Of a stretch of 36,380 nucleotides of DNA, positions 17,232 through 36,210 are shown piece after piece (position 1 is the stretch's first letter; the number at the start of each line of letters is the position of its first letter). This stretch comes from Nitrospira sp. (GTDB taxonomy: Bacteria > Nitrospirota > Nitrospiria > Nitrospirales > Nitrospiraceae), in NCBI GenBank assembly GCA_024330925.1, contig JANDJK010000017.1, positions 1-36,380 on the forward strand, read 5' to 3'. The position numbers were made by a program, and so were the translations under genes. The notes under the pieces are model-generated. The model had not been told where the DNA came from and made no database searches. It was given only the letters and a program-made list of their open reading frames with translations.

Positions 17232-17966
17232 ATGGCATTCTTAAGCATCCGAACCATGGCATCAATCTTTGATAACTGTTACGGAGCGCGAAGGGCTTCT
17301 CGCGTTTCTAGCTTTATGGCGTTTGGGATAGTGATGCTTGTGGGACTGTTGGGAGGACCTCTCCAGGCATGTGCTGAGAAACTAAGTGAGCCGCTGCCTC
17401 GACCACAGTCAGCAGGTGGGGGGGGAGTAGACAAATCATCACTCGTAGTCACACCGGACTACATTATAGGACCAGAAGATGTGTTGGACGTTAGTGTTTG
17501 GAAAAATACCGATTTGTCACGGACGGTTCTGGTTCGGCCTGATGGGAAAATTTCTCTTCCGCTGATCGGTGATGTGGTAGCTGTTGGAATGACCGCTACT
17601 CACTTAGCAGACGTCATTTCAGAACGATTAAAGGAATATAAGGAGAATCCGCAAGTATCCATCGTAGTCAAGGAGATTAACAGTTACGCGATCTACGTGC
17701 TCGGTGAAGTGGCCCATCCGGGGAAGTATCCGCTCAAAAGCAAAACGACCCTCTTGCAGGCCATCACGCTGGCCGGCGGATTTACGCCGACGGCGGCACG
17801 GAATAAGATCGTGGTATTTCGGTTTGGGGAGAACGGGCAAAAGGATGTCAAGATCAAGGTGAATTATGACGACATTGTTCTGCGAGATGGCTCAAGTCAA
17901 AACCTAGTGCTTGCTCCCGGCGACACCATTGTGATTCCCTCAGAAACCATGGTGTTGGTACCCTAA
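17232..17966 (+). CDS. Wza-like polysaccharide export lipoprotein (copy 1)
   Basis: This is an outer-membrane polysaccharide export protein of 244 residues. The N-terminus has a hydrophobic stretch ending GGPLQACAEK; Cys47 may be lipidated, although the lipobox LQAC is not ideal. A Poly_export domain begins IIGPEDVLDVSVWKNTDLSR, with RPDGKISLPLIGDV, followed by one SLBB domain (YAIYVLGEVAHPGKYPL...LAGGFTPTA). Such short Wza relatives are typical of exosortase-associated EPS loci. The ribosome site at ATG 17232 is weak; ATG 17256 and ATG 17316 are possible. It is strongly similar to the next gene, indicating tandem duplication. Confidence 0.92.
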   Translation: MAFLSIRTMASIFDNCYGARRASRVSSFMAFGIVMLVGLLGGPLQACAEKLSEPLPRPQSAGGGGVDKSSLVVTPDYIIGPEDVLDVSVWKNTDLSRTVLVRPDGKISLPLIGDVVAVGMTATHLADVISERLKEYKENPQVSIVVKEINSYAIYVLGEVAHPGKYPLKSKTTLLQAITLAGGFTPTAARNKIVVFRFGENGQKDVKIKVNYDDIVLRDGSSQNLVLAPGDTIVIPSETMVLVP

Positions 17967-18049: not shown

Positions 18050-18646
18050 ATGAGACTATTAGTGGGAGGCTTGATACTTTTTCTTGGGGGGTGTGTGGCA
18101 GGGTCGATCTCTCATGAGATATTAAGGGAAGTAAAAAGACCACTCCCTAAGGATTTTTTATTAGGTCCTGAAGATGTCGTAGAAGTCACAGTCTGGAAAA
18201 ACCAGGATTTATCCCGAATTGTGACTGTTCGGCCAGATGGGATGATCTCTCTCCCACTGATTGGGGATGTGCAAGCCAGTGGTTTAACGGCCGAACAAGT
18301 GGGCGAGATTATTGCTAAGAAGCTATCAGAGTATAAAGAAAATCCGTCCGTTTCTGTGAGCGTTAAGGAAGTCAATAGTTACTACATCTATGTGGTAGGA
18401 GAAGTAGTGCATCCTGGGAAGTTTCCGTTGAAATCGTATGCAACAGTCTTGCAAGGTATTTCGCTGGCCGGCGGATTTACTCAATATGCCTCCAAAAACC
18501 GCATGGCTGTCATCCGGACGATAGACAAGGGCACACCGAATGAACGCCAGATTAGAATTCCAGTGCGGTACGACGATCTGGTGTCGGGAAAAGGAGAAAT
18601 CGGGAATTTTCAATTGATGTCGGGGGATACCATTGTCGTGCCGTGA
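18050..18646 (+). CDS. Wza-like polysaccharide export lipoprotein (copy 2)
   Basis: This 198-residue export protein has a short, clear lipoprotein signal (MRLLVGGLILFLGGC, Cys15). It shares with its upstream neighbour the strings GPEDV, VWKN.DLSR, RPDG.ISLPLIGDV, EYKENP, GEV.HPGK.PLKS and LAGGFT. It has one Poly_export and one SLBB domain. Relative to copy 1 it has a shorter N-terminus and a variable insert (DKGTPNERQIRIPVRYDDLV) near the end. An AGGAG lies upstream of ATG 18050. It may form mixed or alternative export pores with copy 1; this is inference. Its stop overlaps the next gene if that begins at TTG 18633. Confidence 0.93.
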   Translation: MRLLVGGLILFLGGCVAGSISHEILREVKRPLPKDFLLGPEDVVEVTVWKNQDLSRIVTVRPDGMISLPLIGDVQASGLTAEQVGEIIAKKLSEYKENPSVSVSVKEVNSYYIYVVGEVVHPGKFPLKSYATVLQGISLAGGFTQYASKNRMAVIRTIDKGTPNERQIRIPVRYDDLVSGKGEIGNFQLMSGDTIVVP

Positions 18647-24843: not shown

Positions 24844-25101
24844 TGGCTGAATATGGGGATCGCCACCGCACACGTTGGGGGTTCAGTTTGTTGCACATGC
24901 GAGGCGAAAGCCTCTAGAAGACGTAGGTCATTACTGCTTCGCGAGGGAAGGAATGCCTTCGCGAAACAGTGGTGAAACGTGGTGTGAGCGACAGGAAGGA
25001 ACAATCACTGGTCGTTGCACCAGAAAGGCGGTAGCCTGCTTATCGGTTTCTTACTCTCTCGTCACCCGAGTCTGCCCACACGGGTAGAACCTTTGCTTGC
25101 T
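24844..25101 (+). promoter_or_regulatory. Structured intergenic leader with four consecutive hairpins
   Basis: No gene is supported in these 258 bp. Four predicted RNA hairpins occur within 137 nt. (1) GAGGC-GAAA-GCCTC at 24901-24914, a GNRA tetraloop stem. (2) A long stem at 24931-24972 in which ACTG-c-TTCGCGA-GG pairs with CC-t-TCGCGAA-a-CAGT, about 13 Watson-Crick pairs plus two closing G-U pairs. (3) CTGGT-cgttgc-ACCAG at 25008-25023. (4) AGGC-GGTA-GCCT at 25026-25037. Within (2) an alternative GAAGG/CCTTC stem (24947-24960) is mutually exclusive with the long form. No T-rich tract follows, so it is not a simple terminator. I do not recognise a known riboswitch class. Confidence 0.55.
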
Positions 25102-27045
25102 ATGTGCGGTATTGCTGGCTTTATTACTTTTAGGGGGGAACCCTTTGACAGGGCTATACTCCATCACATGATCAGCTTGGTCAATCATCGGGGGCCCGAT
25201 GCCGTTGGATTCCATCTGAATGGACCGGTTGCGTTAGGACACGCTCGGCTCAGCATTATTGACCTTGCAGGAGGGGCTCAGCCGATGGCGAACGAGGACC
25301 AGAGTCTGTGGATCACGTTCAATGGTGAAATTTTCAACTACGTCGAATTACGGCAAGATCTGATCAAGAAAGGGCATCACTTTAGGACCCAGTCTGATAC
25401 GGAAGTGATCCTTCATCTGTATGAAGAAAAGGGCGACGCTTGCGTACAGGATCTCAATGGGCAGTGGGCCTTTGCGATTTGGGATTCAAAACGGCAGCGG
25501 CTGTTTCTGTCCCGAGACCGGATGGGTATCCGTCCGCTCTTCTATGCAAAAACGGCGGAGGGATTTGGATTCGCATCCGAGATCAAGTCGTTGCTGGCCA
25601 TCCCGTCGTTGCCGCGGAAGATCGATCCCCATGCGTTGGACCAGATCTTTACTTTCTGGGTAACGATACCTCCGGCCACAGTGTTTGCGGGAGTCTCAGA
25701 GCTTCCTCCAGGTCATTGCTTAACCCTTCAAGAAGGGAAGATGGACGTCACTCCCTATTGGACTTTGGAATATGATGGTCATGCCTCTATCAAAGATGAG
25801 AAGGAAGCTTGTGAGGAATTACTGGCTTTGCTTCTGGACGCGACGCGTCTTCGATTACGATCGGACGTGCCGGTTGGCGCCTATCTGAGCGGCGGGCTAG
25901 ATTCAACTGTGATCGCTGCCCTGATCAAGAAGCTGGGCGTCACGCATTTGAAAACCTTTTCGGTGGCGTTCGACGATAAAGAATTCGATGAAAGCTCGTT
26001 TCAAGAAGAGGCTCGCCAATTTCTTGGCACGGATCATCAAACCGTCCTGTGTCGGCCACGCGACATCGGGCGGGTATTTCCTGAAGTGATCTGGCATACG
26101 GAGACGCCGGTTGTCCGAACCGCGCCTGCGCCGCTGTTTCTCTTGTCCAAGCTCGTTCGGGAGCAGGGATACAAGGTGGTATTAACCGGTGAGGGATCTG
26201 ATGAAGTCTTGGGCGGATACGATATTTTTAAGGAGGCCAAGATTCGTCGGTTTTGGGCCACCAATCCGCGCTCGAAGGTTCGTCCGCTTTTGCTTCGTCG
26301 GTTGTATCCGTACATGAAAAACCTCCAATCACAGCCTGATGCCTATTTACGGGCCTTTTTTCACGTGCGCCAGGAGGATCTCAACAATCCGTTTTTCTCC
26401 CATCTCCCTCGCTGGGAGATGACATCCAAACTCAAGCTGTTTTTTTCGCAAGAGGTAAAAGAGCAGATTGCAAACCACGAAACCGTCCGGCAATTAGAAA
26501 AGCGGTTACCTCGCGGTTATGACCGATGGGATCTATTCGCCCGATCCCAATATCTTGAAACCGCCTACCTGCTTCCTGGCTATATTTTGTCGTCACAGGG
26601 TGATCGCGTAGCCATGGCCCATTCGGTGGAAGGACGGTTTCCTTTTTTGGATTATCGTATCGTCGAGTTTGCAGCACGGTTGCCGGCGCAGTTGAAGATG
26701 AAGGTCTTACATGAGAAGTATCTGCTCAAACAAGCAGTCCGCTCGTTGATTCCGGAAACTATTCGCAAGCGGCATAAACAGCCTTATCGAGCTCCTGACT
26801 GTCAAAGCTTTTTCCGGGAGGACGGCTCTCGCTCACTGGTCGAATATGCTGAGGAGTTGTTGAGTCCTCGTGCCATCACGCAAGTTGGTCTGTTTGATGC
26901 GGAAAGCGTCGGGAAGTTGGTAGAGAAAGTGCGGGTGGGACAGGCCATCGGGGTAAAGGATAACATGGCCTTTGTCGGGATTTTATCGACGCAGTTAGTG
27001 GTGGATCAATTTGTCAAGTCTTTTCCTAAGGAGCATATGGTATGA
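25102..27045 (+). CDS. Asparagine-synthase-family amidotransferase, exosortase A locus type
   Basis: This is a 647-residue glutamine-dependent amidotransferase. The start is fixed at ATG 25102 because the product must begin MCGIAGF, exposing the nucleophilic Cys of the class II glutaminase domain (about 2-215). The open frame extends 87 bp upstream to a GTG/TTG-type start that would bury this Cys. The synthetase half has the PP-loop SGGLDS at 263-268 and LTGEGSDEVLGGYDIF. Family members in XrtA loci are thought to amidate an EPS-linked or carrier-linked carboxylate rather than free aspartate; the substrate is unknown. No good ribosome site is visible, so the structured leader upstream may affect translation. 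It overlaps the acyl carrier gene by 4 bp (ATGA). Confidence 0.92.
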   Translation: MCGIAGFITFRGEPFDRAILHHMISLVNHRGPDAVGFHLNGPVALGHARLSIIDLAGGAQPMANEDQSLWITFNGEIFNYVELRQDLIKKGHHFRTQSDTEVILHLYEEKGDACVQDLNGQWAFAIWDSKRQRLFLSRDRMGIRPLFYAKTAEGFGFASEIKSLLAIPSLPRKIDPHALDQIFTFWVTIPPATVFAGVSELPPGHCLTLQEGKMDVTPYWTLEYDGHASIKDEKEACEELLALLLDATRLRLRSDVPVGAYLSGGLDSTVIAALIKKLGVTHLKTFSVAFDDKEFDESSFQEEARQFLGTDHQTVLCRPRDIGRVFPEVIWHTETPVVRTAPAPLFLLSKLVREQGYKVVLTGEGSDEVLGGYDIFKEAKIRRFWATNPRSKVRPLLLRRLYPYMKNLQSQPDAYLRAFFHVRQEDLNNPFFSHLPRWEMTSKLKLFFSQEVKEQIANHETVRQLEKRLPRGYDRWDLFARSQYLETAYLLPGYILSSQGDRVAMAHSVEGRFPFLDYRIVEFAARLPAQLKMKVLHEKYLLKQAVRSLIPETIRKRHKQPYRAPDCQSFFREDGSRSLVEYAEELLSPRAITQVGLFDAESVGKLVEKVRVGQAIGVKDNMAFVGILSTQLVVDQFVKSFPKEHMV

Positions 27046-27308
27046 CATCAATTGAGGCGCAAGTGCGGCAATATGTCACGGATCGGTTGTTATTTGGGCG
27101 GTCAGATGTTGTTGATGGGGATACCTCGTTTTTAGAGTCAGGGCTCATCGATTCGACGGGGGTGTTGGAGCTAGTTACGTTCTTGGAAGAAACCTTCAAA
27201 ATCAAAGTGGAGGATGAAGACCTTATTCCGGCGAATCTTGATTCGATCAATGCACTAACTCGATTTATTCAGACCAAATCCCCGGATTTGGCCCAGAGTC
27301 GTACGTAG
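27042..27308 (+). CDS. Acyl carrier protein-like protein
   Basis: This 88-residue acidic helical protein has the phosphopantetheine site LIDSTGVLEL, where Ser38 would carry the 4'-phosphopantetheine arm. The surrounding helix II is well conserved (FLESGLIDSTGVLELVTFLEE). It is not the fatty-acid AcpP, given no fab neighbours and a divergent sequence. It overlaps the amidotransferase gene (ATGA) and lies 6 bp before the double acyl-AMP ligase, so the ligase very likely loads it. Confidence 0.9.
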   Translation: MTSIEAQVRQYVTDRLLFGRSDVVDGDTSFLESGLIDSTGVLELVTFLEETFKIKVEDEDLIPANLDSINALTRFIQTKSPDLAQSRT

Positions 27309-27314
27309 GTCTCC

Positions 27315-30300
27315 ATGTTGGTCGAGGAATTTTTAGAAGTAAGCGCCGCTCGCTTCCCCGAGAAGATTGCTGTTGTGGCAGGGGGGCGAGGAGTGACTTA
27401 TCGAGAGCTGGACCAACACGCCAATGCTTTGGCGCACTCGCTGATTCGGCTTGGGATTCAACGGGGTGACCGGATCGTCATTTGTCTGAGCAACTCGATC
27501 GAGGCGGTGGTATCGATTTTTGGGGTGTTGAAGGCGCAAGGTGTATTTGTCGTGCTAAGCCCTTCAACCACGGTGGAGAAATTGTTCTATGTTGTGAACC
27601 AAAGCCAAGCATCCGGTCTCATTGTGCAGAGCAGGCATTTCAAGGAGATTTGCTCCCAGCTTGGCCACGCCAATAGCCTCCGAGCAATAATCGAATGTCC
27701 ATCAGCGTTCCCAGAGCCAAGCACAGACAAGACAGCAATCCCGCAGCACCTTGGATTCATGCAGTGTCTGGACTATTCCGATCGTGTGCATGCTCCTCAC
27801 AAGCAGAATATCAATATCGACTTGGCCGCTTTGATATATACGTCATCCTCCACTGGTGAGTCGAAAGGAGTCATGCTAACTCATTTGAACATCTGTTCGG
27901 CGGCGGATTCTATCCTCTCGTATTTGGAATATGGGCAGAGCGATGTCATTCTCAATGTGCTTCCCCTTGCGTTTGATTATGGCCTCTATCAGGTTTTGAT
28001 GGGTATCAAAGTCGGTGCACGGATTGTGCTTGAGCCGTCGTTTGCCTACCCTCATACAGTGTTCCAGCGTATTGAACAAGAACGTGTGACAGTCCTGCCC
28101 TTGGTTCCCACACTCATTGCCGCATTGCTTGAAACCAATCCAGGCAGCTATGACTTCACCTCTGTTCGGTGTGTGACGACGACGGGAGCTGCTGTGCCCG
28201 TAGACCACCTGAAGCGATTGCGCGAACGGTTGCCCCACGCCAAACTTTTCTCGATGTATGGTCTAACAGAGTGCAAGCGGGTTTCATATTTACCGCCTGA
28301 GGAATTAGATCGGCGTCCGATGTCGGTGGGAAAAGGCATGCCGAACCAAGAGATCTATTTGGTGGATGCCGATGGCAATCGACTTGGCCCTGGATCAGTG
28401 GGGGAGCTGGTGGTTAGAGGAGCTCATGTGATGAAAGGCTATTGGAATATGCCGGAAGAGACGGCGCGCGTGTTGAAACCAGGGTTGTGGGGAGATGAAC
28501 GCGTGCTGTTCACCGGTGATTATTTTCGTATGGACGAAGCGGGCTATCTCTATTTCATCGGTCGCAAGGATGACATAATCAAAACGGGCGGGAAAAAAGT
28601 GAGTCCGCGTGAGGTCGAAGATGTCCTCCAGGGGATGACGGAGATTGCTGAGGCAGCCGTTATTGGAGTGCCTCACAGGCGTTTGGGGCAGGTCGTCAAA
28701 GCGTTTATACGATTGCGAAAGGAAGCTAATCTGACCGAGGAGGAAGTGATTCGCCATTGCCGGAATGTTCTCGAACCGTACATGGTTCCTCAAGTGATTC
28801 AATTTGTCGATGTGCTGCCGAAGACAGACAACGGAAAGATAGACAAAAAGGCATTGGAACAGGCCAGCCTGCTATCGGAAGGGGCTGTGCGCCGGCCCGT
28901 TCTTGCAGTTGAGGAACAGAATCGCCATTTCTGGGTGGAAGAATCCCGAATCGAGCATATCATCAATGGCCTGATACAGACGCAGGGGCAAAGAACGGCG
29001 CTAATTTATAGAAACGAGCGCTATACCTACCAAGATCTGCGGGCGCTTATCGACGCTCAAAAATATAAATTGGCCGATGCTGGGTTGCATCGAGAGGACC
29101 GAACTGTTCTCTGGATGGAAAATTCCCCGGAGTATGTCGCAACTTATTTGGCGGTGCTGGAGTTGGGAGCAATCGTGGTGGCGCTTCATCCGCAAACAAT
29201 GGTCGAAGAGGTCGTGCGGATCGTCCGCCATGTGGGAGCTGCGGGCGTGATCATTTCTCAGGCTGTGAAGCAATGGACGGTGGATAACTTTGAATCTGCC
29301 GGTCTTCGCTTCGTGTTGGCGACCGACCAGCTTCGGCGCATGCAGTATCGCGATGCGGGGCACATTGTTCCTTTCGGCACTGCACAGATTATTTATACAT
29401 CCGGTTCGACCGGGCGTCCTAAAGGCGTGGTTCTCACCCATCGAAACCTTGTCACCAACACGAGGTCGATCCTTGAGTATCTTCGCCTCACGTCTGACGA
29501 TGTGGGGCTGGCGGTTCTGCCATTCGTCTATGCCTACGGCAACTCTGTCATGCTCACTCATCTTTTTGCCGGGGGGACATTGGTCATCGAAAATAGCCTC
29601 CTCTATCCGCAAACAGTGGTAGATGCCATGGCCAGGCACCAGGTAACTGGCTTATCAGGAGTTTCGACCACCTACGCTCTCTTGCTGAACAATGCGCATT
29701 TCTCATCTTCTTCCTTTCCGTCGCTTCGCTATCTGACCCACGCGGGGGGGCCGATGCCGTCTGAGCTGTTGGGGCGGCTCCGGAAGGCTTTTCCCGACAC
29801 GCGACTCTATTTGATGTATGGTCAAACAGAAGCATCTGCTCGGTTGACCTATCTCCCGCCCGAACTCGTGGATGTGAAAAAAGGGTCGGCAGGTCGTGCG
29901 ATTCCCGGTGTGACGCTAAAAGTCGTCAAAGAAAGCGGTGAGACGGCTCGGCCGGGCGAAGTAGGAGAAATTTGGGCCAGGGGTGACAATGTTATGCAGG
30001 GCTATTGGCAGGATCCAGAATTGACAGCCCAAGTTCTTAAAGATGGGTGGTTGCGGACAGGCGACCTTGGCTGGATCGATGAAGAAGGATTTATAACCAT
30101 CGTTGGCCGCAACAATGAAATGATCAAGACCGGTGCCTATCGAATTAGTCCAACAGAAATTGAAGAGGTTTTGCTGCAGCATCCCCAAATTTTGGAGGCC
30201 GGTGTGGTGGGACTCGATGATCCGATCTTGGGACAGAAACTTTGTGCCATTGTCGTTCTCAAGGAAAAGGAATCCCTTGATCAGCGAGGTGTGATGGCCT

Positions 30301-30452
30301 ACTGCGCACAACGTCTAGTTCCCTATAAGCGGCCTAAAATGGTGGCCATTGTTCCCTCGTTGCCTAAATCTCCTTCTGGTAAGGTTTTGCGGCATCGCTT
30401 GCGTGAGATAGCCTTAATGGCGCAGGGAGAGTCTGTTCCCGCTTTTTCCTAA
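27315..30452 (+). CDS. Tandem double AMP-forming acyl ligase (two adenylation domains), exosortase A locus type
   Basis: This 1045-residue protein carries two complete ANL-superfamily adenylating domains in one chain. Domain 1 (about 1-520) has YTSSSTGESKGVMLTH near 173-188, MYGLTECKR, the hinge/GD motif TGDYFRMDEAGYLYFIGRKDD and the terminal Lys motif DNGKIDKKAL near 504. Domain 2 (about 540-1045) has YTSGSTGRPKGVVLTH near 692-707, MYGQTEASARLTYLPP, RTGDLGWIDEEGFITIVGRNNE and SGKVLRHRL near 1020. Both retain the expected catalytic Lys. No thiolation or condensation domain is inside, so the separate carrier protein just upstream is the probable acceptor. XrtA-associated ligases are usually single-domain; the fusion is unusual. 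Substrates are unknown. Confidence 0.92.
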   Translation: MLVEEFLEVSAARFPEKIAVVAGGRGVTYRELDQHANALAHSLIRLGIQRGDRIVICLSNSIEAVVSIFGVLKAQGVFVVLSPSTTVEKLFYVVNQSQASGLIVQSRHFKEICSQLGHANSLRAIIECPSAFPEPSTDKTAIPQHLGFMQCLDYSDRVHAPHKQNINIDLAALIYTSSSTGESKGVMLTHLNICSAADSILSYLEYGQSDVILNVLPLAFDYGLYQVLMGIKVGARIVLEPSFAYPHTVFQRIEQERVTVLPLVPTLIAALLETNPGSYDFTSVRCVTTTGAAVPVDHLKRLRERLPHAKLFSMYGLTECKRVSYLPPEELDRRPMSVGKGMPNQEIYLVDADGNRLGPGSVGELVVRGAHVMKGYWNMPEETARVLKPGLWGDERVLFTGDYFRMDEAGYLYFIGRKDDIIKTGGKKVSPREVEDVLQGMTEIAEAAVIGVPHRRLGQVVKAFIRLRKEANLTEEEVIRHCRNVLEPYMVPQVIQFVDVLPKTDNGKIDKKALEQASLLSEGAVRRPVLAVEEQNRHFWVEESRIEHIINGLIQTQGQRTALIYRNERYTYQDLRALIDAQKYKLADAGLHREDRTVLWMENSPEYVATYLAVLELGAIVVALHPQTMVEEVVRIVRHVGAAGVIISQAVKQWTVDNFESAGLRFVLATDQLRRMQYRDAGHIVPFGTAQIIYTSGSTGRPKGVVLTHRNLVTNTRSILEYLRLTSDDVGLAVLPFVYAYGNSVMLTHLFAGGTLVIENSLLYPQTVVDAMARHQVTGLSGVSTTYALLLNNAHFSSSSFPSLRYLTHAGGPMPSELLGRLRKAFPDTRLYLMYGQTEASARLTYLPPELVDVKKGSAGRAIPGVTLKVVKESGETARPGEVGEIWARGDNVMQGYWQDPELTAQVLKDGWLRTGDLGWIDEEGFITIVGRNNEMIKTGAYRISPTEIEEVLLQHPQILEAGVVGLDDPILGQKLCAIVVLKEKESLDQRGVMAYCAQRLVPYKRPKMVAIVPSLPKSPSGKVLRHRLREIALMAQGESVPAFS

Positions 30453-30565: not shown

Positions 30566-31567
30566 ATGGGAGCAAAAAAAGAGAAAGTCTCACGAGATTC
30601 TCTCCGCCTTGATGCCAGCGCTGAAGTGGCACGCATTACGTCGTTTATTCGAGAGAAGGTCGTGACAACGTTACGACGGAAAGGTGTGGTCGTCGGGCTG
30701 TCTGGTGGGATTGACAGTAGTACGGTTGCAGCCCTGGCCGTCCGCGCCTTGGGTGCCGATCGGGTGATCGGATTGTTTATGCCGGAATCTGATTCCTCTG
30801 ATGACAGTCTGCGTTTGGGCCAGTTGTTGGCGGAGAAGCTGGGCATCAGAACCTTTACCGAGGACATCTCCGGCATTCTTCGTGGTGCGGAATGTTACCG
30901 ACGACGCGATGAAGCGATTCGTACTGTTGTCCCTGAGTACCATTCAGGCTACAAGTCCAAACTGGTGCTGTCTTCTCTTGACAGTTCGGAGTTTCGCATC
31001 TCCTATGTTGTGGTGCAGTCGCCGGATGGTGAGCAGCGCAAGGTTCGTCTAACAGCCGAGGCATTTTTGGCGCTGGTGGCGGCGACGAATTTCAAGCAGC
31101 GCACCAGGAAGATGATGGAGTATTACTATGCCGATCGTTTTCAGTACGCCGTTGCGGGTACGCCCAATCGATTGGAATATGATCTCGGATTTTTCGTCAA
31201 GAATGGGGACGGCTCGGCCGATATCAAGCCAATCGCGCATTTGTACAAGTCGCAAGTCTATCAACTTGCTGAGTATCTGGGGGTGCCGCAGGAGATTTTA
31301 AATCGTCCTCCCACCACGGACACTTACTCACTACCTCAGTCGCAGGAAGAATTTTATTTTTCGCTCCCCTACGACCAGATGGACCTCTGTCTGTACGGCA
31401 AGACCCATCGAATACCTGCTTCGGAGATTGCCGAGGCGCTTGGAATGCGTGAGGATCAGGTCGAACGGGTGTATCGCGACATCGACGCCAAGCGAGCCGT
31501 CGCTCACTACCTCCTGATGGAACCGTTGCTCGTCGAGCCGATCAAGAAAACGGTTGCCGAGACATAG
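30566..31567 (+). CDS. NAD+ synthetase-like ATP-pyrophosphatase in EPS locus
   Basis: This 333-residue protein is of the NadE/ExsB PP-loop superfamily. VVVGLSGGIDSSTVAAL contains the PP-loop at 46-52. Further NadE-like motifs are ATNFKQRTRKMMEYYYA, AGTPNRLEYDLGFFVKNGDG, ADIKPIAHLYKSQVYQLAEYLGVP and PTTDTYSLPQSQEEF. There is no N-terminal nitrilase/glutaminase domain, so it would use ammonia or an external donor. It has an extra strand-rich insert (about residues 125-165) relative to the short NadE form. Its position between an acyl ligase and an exosortase suggests a specialised adenylating amidase, but a housekeeping NAD synthase role cannot be excluded. ATG 30566 is chosen (AAGGAG at 6-bp spacing). 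Confidence 0.85.
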   Translation: MGAKKEKVSRDSLRLDASAEVARITSFIREKVVTTLRRKGVVVGLSGGIDSSTVAALAVRALGADRVIGLFMPESDSSDDSLRLGQLLAEKLGIRTFTEDISGILRGAECYRRRDEAIRTVVPEYHSGYKSKLVLSSLDSSEFRISYVVVQSPDGEQRKVRLTAEAFLALVAATNFKQRTRKMMEYYYADRFQYAVAGTPNRLEYDLGFFVKNGDGSADIKPIAHLYKSQVYQLAEYLGVPQEILNRPPTTDTYSLPQSQEEFYFSLPYDQMDLCLYGKTHRIPASEIAEALGMREDQVERVYRDIDAKRAVAHYLLMEPLLVEPIKKTVAET

Positions 31568-31589
31568 ACCGTTTCTCAACCATCTTGCC

Positions 31590-33140
31590 ATGAAACCTGC
31601 CACGTTGTCGCTGTCTGTCATGGCCAAAACGGTTGGCGATCGGAGAGTGCAGACGCTCGGAATCGTTCTGGCTCTCGCCTTGCTGTTTTGTTATGTGGAC
31701 GTCCTACTTGGAATGGCCAACCAGTGGTGGACCATCTCTTTTTATTCATACGCCTTTTTGATTCCTGGCATCAGCGCGTATCTTGTGTGGGTCAGGCGGG
31801 ATCAATTGTGGGCGGTCCAGCCGGAGCCGGCCTATGTGATGGGGACGGTCATTACTGCCGCTGGCTTGTCAGCCTTGATGCTTGGTCGCAAAGCCGGCGT
31901 TCAGACCGTGCAGCAGATATCGCTGTTGATCACCGTTCCCGGTGTTGTGTTGTGTCTCTTCGGATGGCGAATCCTCAAAGTGCTGGGTCTGCCCATTGCG
32001 TTTTTAGGATTTATGATTCCCGTATGGGATGCTGTCACCGAACCGCTCCATTTACCCTTTCAACGCCTTTCGGCCGACCTTGGCGTGCGGCTGCTGAACC
32101 TGTTCGGGATTCCGGTCTATCAGAACGGCGTGTTCATCTATTTGCCGAACATCACGTTGGAAGTTGCCAAGTCGTGTAGCGGCGTCAACTATTTGATTGC
32201 GGTGTTGGCCACGTCGATTCCACTGGCGACCATTGTGCTTCATAGTGTCGGGAAACGGGTCGGTCTTGTTGTATTTGCCGTCACGGTTTCCGCCTTGGCG
32301 AATAGTTTGCGTGTGGCCTTGATCGGTGTGTTGGCCTATTACGGTTTGAGCGGTGATCTTCATGGTCCGTATCACACGTTGCATGGGCTGTTCGTCTCGA
32401 TGATTGGGTATGTCGTGATCTTTGGCGGATTGTGGGTCTTGTCGCGAGGGCAGCAGCCCGCTCCGCGTGGAGCTCCTGCGGGGAAATGGCAGCTTCAATG
32501 GTCGGCAATTCGGATTCCATGGACGGTTGCGGTGGTGGTGCTTGTGGTGGTGGGAGTTGCGGGATCAACCGAGTGGTCTCGGCCTGTGACGCTGGGAGAT
32601 GATCCCGAAAAGCATCTCTCGTTGGCCGATGCCGGCTGGGTACGTTTAGCGGTTCCAACAAGCGACATGATGCCAGGGGCCGACCAAAAATGGTCGTGGA
32701 TCTATCGGGCAGGTGACGGAGAGGATGTCAGGTTATCGCTCTGGTATTTCACGTTCCAATCCCAAGGGAAAGAATTGATCCACGTCGGCACATCCGCTCT
32801 TCACAGGGGTGCAACGATCATGAAGCTGAGTGTAGATGGACAGAATGCGATCGAGGTCAATCGGCGCATCCTTTCCGAAGGTGGGAAACGGCAAGTGGCT
32901 GTGTTTTGGTACGATCTCAATGGACGACGGTTGACCAGCCCTCTTGCCGTCAAGCTCTACACGGCGCTTGACGGGATAACCCAGGGGCGAACGAACGGCG
33001 CCTTGATCTGGGTGGCAACAGATCTGCCTTCCGCTGAAGAGGAGGATGTGGAACAAGCGACCACTCGTTTACAAACGTTTATTGCGCAAGCCTTTCCTCG
33101 GCTTACCCAGTTTCTTGCCAGCTCCAGCTCTACGCCATAA
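31590..33140 (+). CDS. xrtA: Exosortase A fused to an EpsI-like C-terminal domain
   Basis: Exosortases are multispanning inner-membrane proteases/transpeptidases that process PEP-CTERM proteins. The 516-residue product has about eight membrane helices (25-310) with the catalytic residues Cys196 in EVAKSCSGVNYL, Arg241 in ANSLRVALIGV and His262/265 in GPYHTLHG. After a further hydrophobic helix (about 312-330) comes a soluble domain (about 335-510), which resembles EpsI, a separate protein in some loci. I chose ATG 31590; a TTG at 31554 overlaps the preceding gene, and ATG 31620 is possible. No PEP-CTERM substrate (V-P-E-P, helix, Arg) is present in this window, so targets must lie elsewhere. 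Confidence 0.92.
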   Translation: MKPATLSLSVMAKTVGDRRVQTLGIVLALALLFCYVDVLLGMANQWWTISFYSYAFLIPGISAYLVWVRRDQLWAVQPEPAYVMGTVITAAGLSALMLGRKAGVQTVQQISLLITVPGVVLCLFGWRILKVLGLPIAFLGFMIPVWDAVTEPLHLPFQRLSADLGVRLLNLFGIPVYQNGVFIYLPNITLEVAKSCSGVNYLIAVLATSIPLATIVLHSVGKRVGLVVFAVTVSALANSLRVALIGVLAYYGLSGDLHGPYHTLHGLFVSMIGYVVIFGGLWVLSRGQQPAPRGAPAGKWQLQWSAIRIPWTVAVVVLVVVGVAGSTEWSRPVTLGDDPEKHLSLADAGWVRLAVPTSDMMPGADQKWSWIYRAGDGEDVRLSLWYFTFQSQGKELIHVGTSALHRGATIMKLSVDGQNAIEVNRRILSEGGKRQVAVFWYDLNGRRLTSPLAVKLYTALDGITQGRTNGALIWVATDLPSAEEEDVEQATTRLQTFIAQAFPRLTQFLASSSSTP

Positions 33141-33180: not shown

Positions 33181-33906
33181 ATGATGCCAGTTCCTTGGGA
33201 TCGATTGTCGCGCAAGCGGATCTGTTTTGGACATCAGTCGGTCGGCAAAAACCTGATTGATGGATTGATGGCCTGCGCAAAAGGACGGTTGAATATCGTC
33301 GAGAGTTCAGACACGGAAACGTTTCGACAACCGGTGTTCGCCCATTTCCAAGTCGGTCAGAATCGTGATCCGCTGGCAAAATTTGAAGATTTCAAAACCG
33401 TCATGAGATCCGGTGTGGGAGAGTTAGTCGATGTGGCATTCTTTAAGTTGTGCTATGTGGACATCACAGCTCACACTGATGTTGAACATCTGTTCAATAT
33501 GTATCGCCGGATGATGGATGATCTTGCCTTGCGCTATCCAGCGATCACGTTTCTCCATGTTACTGTGCCGTTGAGACGCCTGGAGAACGGGGTGCTTCAA
33601 TGGATCAAGACGCAGTGGCGAGGAGACGAGCGGGAATACCTTTCGCAAGTTAAACGCCATGCCTACAACGAACTCTTGCGTACCACGTACGGGCCGTCGG
33701 GCCGATTGTTCGACTTGGCGGCGGAGGAAGCGACTTATCCGGATGGGCGGGTCTCGATTATTCGGTATCAAGGAAGAACCATCCCCACTCTTGTCTCGGA
33801 CTACACAAACGACGGCGGCCATCTAAATGAATGGGCTGCGGAACGCATTGCAGCTCGGCTGCTGGCTTGTATCGGATCGATCGAAGAGGCCGTGCAGGAT
33901 CAATAA
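33181..33906 (+). CDS. SGNH/GDSL-like protein of unknown function in EPS locus
   Basis: This 241-residue protein has no signal peptide. An N-terminal FGHQSVGKNLIDGL resembles a degenerate block I of SGNH hydrolases, with GHQS in place of GDS, and the C-terminal SDYTNDGGHLNEWAAERIA resembles block V (DxxH). The middle has DVAFFKLCYVDITAHTDVEHL and TFLHVTVPLRR, consistent with a flavodoxin-like hydrolase core. It could acylate or deacylate the polysaccharide, as SGNH proteins in other EPS loci do, but this is inference. The start is ATG 33181; ATG 33184 is an alternative. It sits between the exosortase and the FemAB-like gene. Confidence 0.65.
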   Translation: MMPVPWDRLSRKRICFGHQSVGKNLIDGLMACAKGRLNIVESSDTETFRQPVFAHFQVGQNRDPLAKFEDFKTVMRSGVGELVDVAFFKLCYVDITAHTDVEHLFNMYRRMMDDLALRYPAITFLHVTVPLRRLENGVLQWIKTQWRGDEREYLSQVKRHAYNELLRTTYGPSGRLFDLAAEEATYPDGRVSIIRYQGRTIPTLVSDYTNDGGHLNEWAAERIAARLLACIGSIEEAVQDQ

Positions 33907-33921
33907 GAGGGCGGGGCACCC

Positions 33922-34953
33922 ATGATGCAGATCGTCTATTGTCATGATGATCATGCCCAGGCGTGGGATGAGTACGTGAGTCGTCATGAACAGGGGTCGT
34001 TTTATCATCTGTTCGGATGGAAATGGATCAATGAAGCCTCATTTGGGCACCAGACGTTCTATCTGGCGGCGATGGATGAAGGGCGGATCCGGGGCGTTTT
34101 GCCGTTGGTTTATTTGCATACCAGACTGTTCGGGAAAATTCTCTGCTCGCTTCCGTTCGTCAATTATGGCGGGCTCTGTTCGGACGATGCGGAAGTTGAT
34201 CGGCTGTTGCTCGATGAGGCCAAGGCCATTGTGGAACGGCTTGGCATCAAATATCTGGAGATCCGCGGGATACGAAAAGTAGGAGGCGACTTGCCGACCT
34301 CAGAGCACAAGGTCAGTGTCACCATCATGCTGGATTCGAACCCCGATACGCTGTGGAATGCGTTCAAAACCGGACACCGCAACAATGTCCGCCGTGCCTA
34401 CAAGAGAGGGTTAACAGTCCGAAGCGGGGGTGCCGAACTGCTCGATACGTTCTACGACATCTTGAGTGTGAGTTGGAGAAATCTAGGCACCCCGCTGTAT
34501 CAGAAAAGCTATTTTGAACGTCTGATGGAGACTTTTCCCAACGCAACCAAAATTTTCGTGCTGGACCATCAAGGGATTCCGGTCTCTGCGGCCTTGAACG
34601 GACATTTTCGTGGAGTGGTCGAGGGGATGTGGTTGGGATCCCTGCCCAAAGCCCGCGAAGTGGAATCGAGTTATGTCCTCTATTGGGAGATGATCAAGGA
34701 TGCTTGCGAACGAGGCTATCGTCTCTATCATCTTGGCCGATCCACGGCGGATTCCGGCGGCGAGGCGTTCAAGAAAAAATGGAATGCGTTTCCCACGCAG
34801 CTCTATTGGCAGTATCTGGTGAGGGACGGAGGGCCGATTCCGCAACTGAATGTCAACAATCCAAAATTCCAGTTGGCTATCAATGTGTGGAAAATGCTGC
34901 CTCTGCCGATCGCCAGAGCGATAGGCCCCATGGTGGCTAAAGGGATTCCCTAG
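33922..34953 (+). CDS. FemAB-family transferase, PEP-CTERM/exosortase-associated type
   Basis: This 343-residue protein has a double GNAT-like fold. Features include SRHEQGSFYHLFGWKWINEASFG near 20, VLPLVYLHTRLFGKILCSLPFVNYGG, and the FemAB-type LWNAFKTGHRNNVRRAYKRGLTV near 150. GVVEGMWLGSLPKAREVESSY and LGRSTADSGGEAFKKKW are near 235-290. Relatives transfer amino acids to peptidoglycan precursors (FemAB) or occur in exosortase loci with unknown acceptor. Here it could attach an aminoacyl or acyl group to the EPS or to a surface protein. It begins at a tandem ATG-ATG (33922/33925). Confidence 0.88.
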   Translation: MMQIVYCHDDHAQAWDEYVSRHEQGSFYHLFGWKWINEASFGHQTFYLAAMDEGRIRGVLPLVYLHTRLFGKILCSLPFVNYGGLCSDDAEVDRLLLDEAKAIVERLGIKYLEIRGIRKVGGDLPTSEHKVSVTIMLDSNPDTLWNAFKTGHRNNVRRAYKRGLTVRSGGAELLDTFYDILSVSWRNLGTPLYQKSYFERLMETFPNATKIFVLDHQGIPVSAALNGHFRGVVEGMWLGSLPKAREVESSYVLYWEMIKDACERGYRLYHLGRSTADSGGEAFKKKWNAFPTQLYWQYLVRDGGPIPQLNVNNPKFQLAINVWKMLPLPIARAIGPMVAKGIP

Positions 34954-34980: not shown

Positions 34981-36210
34981 ATGCGAAGTATCATGCACGC
35001 CAGATTTCGCTTTGTTCCGCCAGCCGGCACACCGGTCAATTTCACCGATGTGGTGGGCAGTATCGGAGCAGTGTTCCGTGGACAGGATACAGTTGAACGA
35101 TTCAAGGCCGATCTCTGTGCCAAAGTCGGCGTCAGACATTGTGAGTTGGTTTCTACCGGCCGTGCCGCTCTGACCGTAGCGCTGCTTGCGCTGAAGGAGG
35201 TGGACGGAGGCAAGCGAAAGGAAGTCCTCATCCCTTCCTATACGTGTTTTTCGGTGCCATCCTCCGTCGTCAAAGCTGGTCTACAAGTACGGTTAGCCGA
35301 TGTGGATCCTGAGACGCTTGATTTTCTGCCGGAGAGTCTGGAGCGGCTGGATGGCGAGAGAGTCCTAGCGGTTGTGGCGACGAATTTATATGGCATGCCT
35401 TCCAACATGGAGGTGTGGAGGCGCCTCACTCAAGAGCGAGGGGTGTATCTGATCGATGACGCGGCCCAATGTCTTGGCGGCTTGATTGGAGGACGGTACT
35501 CTGGCACCTGGGGGGATATTGGGCTCTATAGTTTCGATAAGGGAAAAAACGTCACGTCGATCGATGGGGGCGCATTGGTGACCGATTCCGATCAGATCGC
35601 GGCGACGGTCTCTGCAAAAGTGCAAGAATTACGAAACAGCACCGTGAACGAGTCGGTGTCGCATCTAGTCAAGCTGCTGGTGTACGCTTCTTTTTTACAC
35701 CCTCGACGATACTGGATTCCCAATGCGCTCCCTTTTCTGGGTTTGGGGACCACGGTCTATCGGACTGATTATCCTCTGGCCCGATATGATACGTGGATGG
35801 CGCCGCTCGGCCATCGGCTCCTCACACGATTAGATGTCATTGGGGCACGGCGACGGGCAGCGGCCGATGGGTACATGAAACGATTGCCATGGAGTGCCAA
35901 ACTCCGTTCTGTGCAACCGAGGGCCGGGACAGTTCCGGCGTACCTGCGATTTCCCGTGCTGGTGGCTCCTGAGTTGAGAAGCAAGGTGCTGGAAGCGTTG
36001 CGTCACGCGGGAATCGGTGCGACTACCTCCTATCCATCGGCCATTCAGGACATTCCTCAACTTCAGGGGGTATTAACACCTGAAGACCGACAACTCTCCG
36101 GCGGCAGAGATCTCGCCCAACGCATCTTGACCCTTCCCACCCACGGTTACGTAACGGAAAGCGATCAAGATCGGATCGCTGTCGTGCTGGCGGAAGCGCT
36201 GGGCGAATAA
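34981..36210 (+). CDS. DegT/DnrJ/EryC1/StrS-family PLP aminotransferase
   Basis: This 409-residue sugar aminotransferase would convert a keto-sugar nucleotide to an amino-sugar. An N-terminal catalytic domain has CELVSTGRAALTVALLAL, EVLIPSYTCFSVP, the DDAAQCLGG motif (PLP-stacking Asp) and GLYSFDKGKNVTSIDGGAL, where Lys189 is the predicted Schiff-base Lys. The start is ATG 34981 with CGGAG 6 bp upstream; ATG 34993 is possible. It provides amino sugars that the deacetylase/acyltransferase genes nearby could modify. The exact sugar is unknown. Confidence 0.9.
   Translation: MRSIMHARFRFVPPAGTPVNFTDVVGSIGAVFRGQDTVERFKADLCAKVGVRHCELVSTGRAALTVALLALKEVDGGKRKEVLIPSYTCFSVPSSVVKAGLQVRLADVDPETLDFLPESLERLDGERVLAVVATNLYGMPSNMEVWRRLTQERGVYLIDDAAQCLGGLIGGRYSGTWGDIGLYSFDKGKNVTSIDGGALVTDSDQIAATVSAKVQELRNSTVNESVSHLVKLLVYASFLHPRRYWIPNALPFLGLGTTVYRTDYPLARYDTWMAPLGHRLLTRLDVIGARRRAAADGYMKRLPWSAKLRSVQPRAGTVPAYLRFPVLVAPELRSKVLEALRHAGIGATTSYPSAIQDIPQLQGVLTPEDRQLSGGRDLAQRILTLPTHGYVTESDQDRIAVVLAEALGE

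Follow-up and report, generated by a model that had tools for sequence, protein, structure and literature searches.

How two complete ligases come to lie in a single polypeptide, and which acids they would hand to which carrier, is the question raised by a gene of Nitrospira sp. (NCBI GenBank assembly GCA_024330925.1, here G000; a draft genome of 2.44 Mb in 149 contigs). The gene occupies positions 27,315 to 30,452 of contig JANDJK010000017.1, and the window analysed is this whole contig of 36,380 nucleotides. Its uninterrupted frame of 1045 codons contains two PF00501 and two PF13193 stretches (Pfam) and thus bears out the two ligase domains that a preliminary description, made from the sequence alone, had noticed. 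Each half, LigA and LigB, is a complete domain of the ANL superfamily, with a PF00501 core and a PF13193 part carrying the A10 lysine (K508 and K1023). Two ANL folds are also seen in the AlphaFold model of the full protein (predicted local distance difference test score, pLDDT, 80.5; predicted template modelling score, pTM, 0.49) and a model of LigA reached pLDDT 85.5; the P-loops of both halves were poorly modelled (low pLDDT at residues 178-180 and 697-700). Taken together with the results below, the gene is a lineage-specific, conserved fusion of two paralogous ligases serving one carrier module in an exopolysaccharide/exosortase locus.

Two ligases of separate ancestry in one Nitrospira gene

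Eight of the 175 family genomes, that of the window among them, carry the fusion without an internal stop, and all eight belong to the genus Nitrospira (G000, G009, G008, G349, G433, G253, G017 and G439). The other fusions are 58-81% identical to that of the window over their whole length, G439 being the most distant (58-59%). The search covered the 175 family genomes (at most four candidates scored in each), 395 genomes of the phylum (at most three in each) and 80 listed collection loci from at least 594 stretches, and no fusion outside Nitrospira was found among them. Although the window genome, like most others with the fusion, is a draft split into many contigs, an assembly or annotation artefact merging two genes, a possibility raised in the preliminary description, is hardly credible, because the same fusion stands in eight separate genomes and the linker is alignable in frame in all of them. 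The pairwise ratio of nonsynonymous to synonymous substitution rates (dN/dS; NG86 method, seven pairs, of which several have saturated dS) was 0.33 to 1.14 for the linker (five pairs computable), 0.08-0.17 for LigA and 0.08-0.12 for LigB (six pairs each), and one additional pair with saturated dS gave 0.045 for LigB and no computable value for LigA. These ratios indicate that both halves are under purifying selection. An internal translation start for LigB was also considered. Start codons do occur in the linker, and one in the window, a GTG at residue 525, has a Shine-Dalgarno-like box, but no start codon with such a box is conserved at the junction across the eight fusions, which makes two separate products unlikely, and this candidate was set aside.

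The preliminary description had attributed the two halves to an internal tandem duplication of one exosortase-associated ligase. Both halves do score on TIGR03098, the family of ligases linked to the exosortase XrtA, and both carry the MYG.TE...YLPP string; this string is not peculiar to the two halves, since standalone LigA and LigB proteins and true TIGR03098 ligases have it too. Identity between the halves is 31-37% across the eight fusions (35% in the protein of the window), compared with 55-94% when A is set against A and 61-95% when B is set against B. We built a quick tree of 93 domain rows and a careful maximum-likelihood tree of 68, for which standalone LigA rows were thinned and FadD-like rows and both rows of locus L082 omitted. 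In the latter, all eight A rows group together within a broader LigA clade, whose members also come from Planctomycetota, Acidobacteriota, Pseudomonadota, Chloroflexota and other groups, while the eight B rows are placed in a separate LigB clade. The TIGR03098 ligases of loci L024, L025, L080 and L106, together with L094, form the sister clade of LigA. Forcing the fused A and B rows into a joint clade cost 568 log-likelihood units (approximately unbiased test, p-AU 7.8e-57), so that identity, tree and, under the model used, test all reject internal duplication, which we regard as extremely improbable. The separate domain phylogeny that the preliminary description had proposed, with grouping in unrelated ligase families as the sign against duplication, shows that sign in a mild form: the subfamilies are distinct, yet related. 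We infer from these comparisons that the fusion joins two old, separate, paralogous ligases rather than a recent internal copy.

The grouping forced in this first test was the hypothesis of the preliminary description, and that of a second test was named after the tree had been seen. The single LigB proteins of G028, G436 and G146 nest among the fused B rows, and a clade of fused B rows only was rejected (p-AU 2.4e-4). No second match at E 1e-80 was found in these three genomes (completeness 88, 78 and 99%; at most four candidates scored in each). The simplest reading of these data would be one fusion followed by loss of LigA in this lineage.

Whether either half belongs to TIGR03098 was decided by scoring each alone. 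LigA reaches 460.1 and LigB 373.6 bits against a cut-off of 592.35, and members (L024, L025, L080 and L106) score 625-636 bits, so the membership of each half is rejected by score as well as by the tree. The whole protein passes with 828.1 bits because the two domain scores add up; automatic annotation could in this way misname the fusion as an XrtA ligase. The fusion does lie in an exosortase locus, the exosortase being XrtW (NF038142, 576.9 bits, cut-off 425), but its ligases are not XrtA/TIGR03098 members. The TIGR03098 ligases resemble LigA in being its sister clade and in sharing the D, T and R pocket positions (DATFR in five of five rows), and they differ at positions 222 and 321. Their module partner is the TIGR03099 decarboxylase, in place of which AsnS and NADs (see below) are found here. 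NCBIfam types both TIGR03098 and TIGR03099 as "hypoth_equivalog", and the ligases of exosortase and exopolysaccharide loci carry no substrate assignment in the family library used.

Acid pockets and altered catalytic loops

The best PDB match of the LigA pocket region is VinN (3wvn, 3wv4), which aligns without a gap through the string TECKR. According to the passages of PMC11253843 that deal with its pocket, VinN recognises methylaspartate as a beta-amino acid via D230, F231, S299, K330 and R331, and its pocket loop is one residue shorter than usual. The corresponding LigA residues D221, Y222, T290, K321 and R322 (DYTKR) are present in all eight fused and in 84 of 86 standalone rows, and the loop has six residues in all eight fusions and in each of the 82 standalone rows for which a length was obtained (the other 4 were left unscored). 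LigA therefore has each feature of a VinN-type pocket (Asp, a bulky residue, a Ser-like residue, Lys-Arg and a short beta13-beta14 loop), Thr for Ser and Tyr for Phe being conservative differences. LigB, in contrast, has AYASR in all eight fusions and a loop one residue longer (seven residues in 8 of 8 fused and 15 of 19 standalone rows, eight in one, three not scored), its top PDB hits being feruloyl/fatty-acyl and coumarate ligases. Because LigA has a VinN-type pocket and LigB lacks it, the two probably differ in substrate: LigA probably activates an amino acid, aspartate-like, via its beta-carboxyl group, and there is moderate support for LigB activating a different acid without an amino group read by Asp. 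The missing Asp of LigB is a pointer and not a proof, since McyG has Val at this position, so that Asp is not strictly needed for amino acids (as stated in the same part of PMC11253843). Of the earlier suggestion that both halves may be active, possibly on different acids, the part on different acids is supported by the differing pockets; the motif intactness from which activity of both had been argued holds only in part.

Of the motifs A3, A5, A7/A8 and A10 that had been described as retained in both halves, A5, A7 and the A10 lysines are indeed there, and the P-loop (A3) of LigB is canonical. The exceptions are the P-loop and the A8 loop of LigA. We counted columns in 144 domain rows, leaving out the duplicates L107-L109, L112 and L013; the standalone LigA group is without FadD-like rows, the five XrtA-type rows and two Mesorhizobium proteins of 911 amino acids (L131, L175). 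Gly178 of the P-loop is replaced by Ser or Ala in 8 of 8 fused LigA (Ser178 in the window) and is Gly in 85 of 86 standalone rows, and Pro183 is replaced in 7 of 8 fusions, the standalone rows having Pro (83/86) or Ala (3/86). Also rewritten is the A8 loop, part of the lining of the pantetheine tunnel. At position 425, seven fusions have Gly and one has Lys; the 86 standalone rows include 74 with Arg, 8 with Lys and 2 with Gly. All eight fusions have Lys, Arg or His in place of Glu427, a residue kept by 81 of the 86 standalone rows, and two of the eight have Glu in place of Gly426, which all 86 keep. Among 93 columns conserved to at least 95% in the 86 standalone LigA rows, only Gly178, Pro183 and Asn289, which adjoins the pocket, are overturned in at least six of the eight fusions. 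The other side of this comparison is that 82 of the 93 are unchanged, and Asp402, Arg417, Lys508 and the five pocket residues are kept in all eight. Since they are shared by descent, the fusion-only substitutions represent one or a few events, not eight.

What these substitutions may cost can be judged from characterised enzymes. The P-loop glycine position (alignment index 324) is 97% conserved in 374 class I enzymes, as reported in the alignment part of PMC6122825; as it is not invariant, the ANL membership of LigA stands while an intact A3 does not. Table 2 of that paper lists, at the position of Gly178, G163I of CBL, with adenylation down 4000-fold, and G216A of E. coli ACS, with 75% of Vmax lost; at the position of Pro183, P168A of CBL loses all activity. 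Replacement of CBL Gly409, which matches Gly426, by Leu abolished thioesterification alone (mutant data in PMC6122825), and a medium-chain ligase was hardly affected by the change Gly459Ala in its A8 loop (PMC10455477, section 3.4). Given the retained pocket and constraint, LigA would be either retuned or partly silenced, two outcomes between which the sequence cannot tell.

The carrier module and its proposed product

Directly upstream of the fusion is a gene for a free-standing acyl carrier protein (ACP), which itself overlaps the stop of a gene for an asparagine-synthase-like glutamine amidotransferase (AsnS); the fused gene begins six bases past the ACP stop and is followed by a gene for an NAD-synthase-like PP-loop ATPase (NADs). 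AsnS, ACP and NADs are present in the window and the seven other fusion loci, with one ACP gene per locus, as also in G075 and G096. LigB occurs alone in the slot of the fusion in six related genomes (G028, G436, G146, G201, G355 and G141). Standalone LigA is found in 11 loci of Nitrospirota and, among the matches listed, in the majority of another 76 loci from the collection. G075, G096 and L180, a gammaproteobacterial metagenome-assembled genome, carry LigA and LigB as two genes within a single locus.

The 76 listed LigA loci (within L110-L186) come from at least 15 named phyla, two Bosea loci being unassigned. At least 59 of them have AsnS, at least 61 NADs and at least 51 ACP above the thresholds, these counts being lower bounds owing to contig ends and the small size of ACPs. 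AsnS and NADs occur together in at least 10 phyla (at least 11 once L070 and L072 of Nitrospirota are counted), and all three in at least 7 (at least 8 when the same two are added); 74 of the 76 have no match to the local exosortase. The standalone-LigA loci of Nitrospirota have a WbuX-like N-acetyl sugar amidotransferase (9/11) or NADs (the other two). When the 76, 11 and 2 LigA loci were combined with 4 loci of TIGR03098 ligases, a TIGR03099-type pyridoxal phosphate (PLP) decarboxylase was found in 8 of the 93 loci and never with NADs or WbuX, one or other of which is present in 75; 10 have neither. This exclusion is as expected if decarboxylation and the NADs/WbuX step were alternative fates of a free carboxylate. 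The replacement of NADs by the WbuX-like enzyme in related loci hints that the two perform the same kind of step.

Our best overall explanation, which we hold to be evenly poised between right and wrong, is that the fused ligases charge the neighbouring carrier with two acids for decoration of an exopolysaccharide. Two older, separate ligases would have been joined once in Nitrospira, both ancestors having served the same type of module (AsnS-like enzyme, free ACP, ligase and NADs-like or WbuX-like PP-loop enzyme) in an exopolysaccharide/exosortase setting. LigA would adenylate the beta-carboxyl group of an aspartate-like amino acid and hand it to the ACP, as VinN does with methylaspartate, and LigB would activate the other acid; both steps have moderate support. 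Weaker support exists for the remaining ones, in which both halves would charge the same neighbouring ACP, the amidotransferase pair would modify the carrier-bound acyl group, for example at its free carboxylate, and a GNAT/FemAB-type enzyme would transfer the product to a sugar. The fusion itself would set a 1:1 ratio of the two ligases and their nearness to one carrier.

Several observations weigh against parts of this explanation. Over the whole of LigA, the top PDB scores belong to LgrA (328 bits), whose chains have two adenylating domains, and to a peptide synthetase (229 bits), and VinN (225 bits) is barely above malonyl-CoA synthetase (212-214 bits). By fold, LigA matches VinN with Z 49.6 (378 aligned residues at 33% identity), a value that several CoA ligases equal, and VinN lies outside the Foldseek top 50; neither the full model nor that of LigA thus tells VinN from CoA ligases by fold. 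LigA is dispensable in the lineage of G028, G436 and G146, which lacks it despite a LigB that branches from among the fused ones. The P-loop and A8 substitutions, by analogy with the mutants above, predict slow or altered catalysis. Each ligase of L180 has its own ACP, and a shared ACP is therefore not the sole arrangement. The Fisher p of 4e-7 for the decarboxylase exclusion ignores relatedness among the loci.

Two other accounts of the protein draw on the same evidence. LigA might adenylate only slowly or no longer at all, and persist as a partner that binds substrate for, or docks with, an active LigB; two of its only three overturned columns lying in the P-loop, one of them at the 97% conserved glycine, the Glu at position 426 in two fusions and the loss of LigA in one sublineage speak for this. 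We consider it rather unlikely, because the great majority of near-invariant columns, the five pocket residues and Asp402, Arg417 and Lys508 are untouched, dN/dS is about 0.1, Gly to Ala cost one enzyme just 75% of Vmax, Ala stands at Pro183 in three standalone rows and Gly459Ala was near-neutral. Alternatively, the halves could divide their work on one free ACP as in the VinN/VinM/VinL system, where, in the part of PMC11284099 on carrier loading, VinN loads the free ACP VinL and VinM is a second adenylating enzyme acting on loaded VinL. This precedent and the single ACP gene per fusion locus favour such a division; LigB, however, accompanies the ACP without LigA in six near loci, where it would need to do the loading itself, and L180 has one ACP per ligase, which leaves this account a shade less likely again than a silenced LigA.

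The two-acid explanation can be set beside known systems. VinN/VinL of vicenistatin (and BolO/BolC, proposed in bolagladin) resemble LigA and its neighbour in pocket residues, short loop and adjoining free ACP, and related LigA loci have a PLP decarboxylase comparable with VinO by the kind of step alone (VinO step as given in part of PMC7756342). Here, unlike there, the loci are exopolysaccharide loci with mostly amidotransferase-like partners instead of a decarboxylase, and the Nitrospira LigA is fused to a second ligase and altered in its P-loop. VinM is a separate gene and is set beside LigB by role, not by sequence. Dimodular nonribosomal peptide synthetases such as LgrA, the top Foldseek match of the full model, also have two adenylating domains per chain, but no condensation or carrier domain was found by Pfam in the fused protein, whose carrier is a separate protein.

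A wider possibility, which we advance as speculative and think rather improbable as a whole, is that the widespread module of AsnS, ACP, VinN-like ligase and NADs or WbuX makes an amidated or amidine beta-aspartyl group on its carrier for surface polysaccharides, to which the two-headed Nitrospira ligase would add a second, non-amino acid, the P-loop and A8 loop of LigA being retuned to set ratio or order. This module and the VinN-like reading of LigA would be a more interesting outcome than the fusion itself and are directly testable: the pocket match offers a cheap and concrete test, namely which amino acid releases pyrophosphate. With its single adjoining ACP, the fusion lends itself to studying how two acids are charged onto one carrier, and the P-loop change found only in fusions provides a ready-made mutant of a residue that hardly varies elsewhere. 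Among the matches listed in a literature search on the module, tandem ligases and exosortases with acyl ligases, no paper on the fusion or the module was found, and the terms "ligase" and "acyl carrier" do not occur in PMC1569441.

Neighbouring genes and related loci

The features of the window are collected in Table 1. Upstream of AsnS, ACP and the fusion lie export, chain-length, glycosyltransferase, deacetylase and RfaH-like genes. The listed open frame of AsnS starts at 25015, but its relatives begin at the MCG methionine (25102). A housekeeping NadE role of the NADs gene was ruled out: a higher-scoring NadE lies on contig C64 of the same genome, for which reason the local NADs looks like a specialised paralog.

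Table 1. Position of the fused gene, its domains and motifs, and the neighbouring genes in the window
Feature	Coordinates	Strand	Family or basis
AsnS, asparagine-synthase-like glutamine amidotransferase	25102..27045	+	TIGR01536
ACP, free-standing, 88 amino acids, DS(T) serine present	27042..27308	+	PF00550
Fused LigA-LigB two-ligase gene, 1045 amino acids	27315..30452	+	open frame; 8 fused genomes in all
LigA (half A), residues 1-516, VinN-like adenylating domain	27315..28862	+	profiles, tree, PDB matches
LigA A3 P-loop, residues 176-185; Ser at 178 and 183 (Gly and Pro in standalone relatives)	27840..27869	+	
LigA D221-Y222	27975..27980	+	aligned to VinN D230-F231
LigA T290	28182..28184	+	aligned to VinN S299
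LigA K321-R322 in short loop	28275..28280	+	aligned to VinN K330-R331
LigA A8 loop, residues 423-428, rewritten in fusions	28581..28598	+	
LigA A10 lysine K508	28836..28838	+	
Inter-domain linker, residues 517-545, fast-changing; 520-542 with pLDDT <50	28863..28949	+	
LigB (half B) domain, residues 546-1031	28950..30407	+	
LigB A10 lysine K1023	30381..30383	+	
NADs, NAD-synthase-like PP-loop ATPase, second paralog in genome	30503..31567	+	NF002048
Exosortase XrtW with EpsI-like C-terminus	31554..33140	+	NF038142
Conserved 241-amino-acid protein without family	33181..33906	+	
FemAB/GNAT-like transferase	33922..34953	+	TIGR03019
DegT/DnrJ sugar aminotransferase-like	34981..36210	+	PF01041

Some further observations concern these genes and their counterparts elsewhere. 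Tandem EpsE-like export paralogs lie at 17232-17966 and 18050-18646 of the window, both under the TIGR03027 cut-off. The 241-amino-acid protein recurs in the fusion loci and in L075, L127, L137 and L142. Three genomes of the other genus (G201, G355 and G141; loci L103, L104 and L105) keep the locus and have no XrtW match between NADs and the 241-amino-acid gene. Examples of the exchange of NADs for the WbuX-like enzyme are L068:3545-4537 and L075:12063-13055, and 2 of the 93 loci have both. The module of AsnS, LigA and NADs, usually with ACP, is seen for instance in L120, L138, L157 and L110, and we saw no family name for it. The LigA frames of L150, L164 and L166 have N-terminal extensions of about 350-640 amino acids, which may be contig-edge or start-codon effects and in which Pfam matched no family. 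The Mesorhizobium proteins of 911 amino acids (L131:243-2978 and L175:244-2979) are AMP-binding proteins beside a LigA module, and that of L131, the copy to which Pfam was applied, also has a thioesterase domain.

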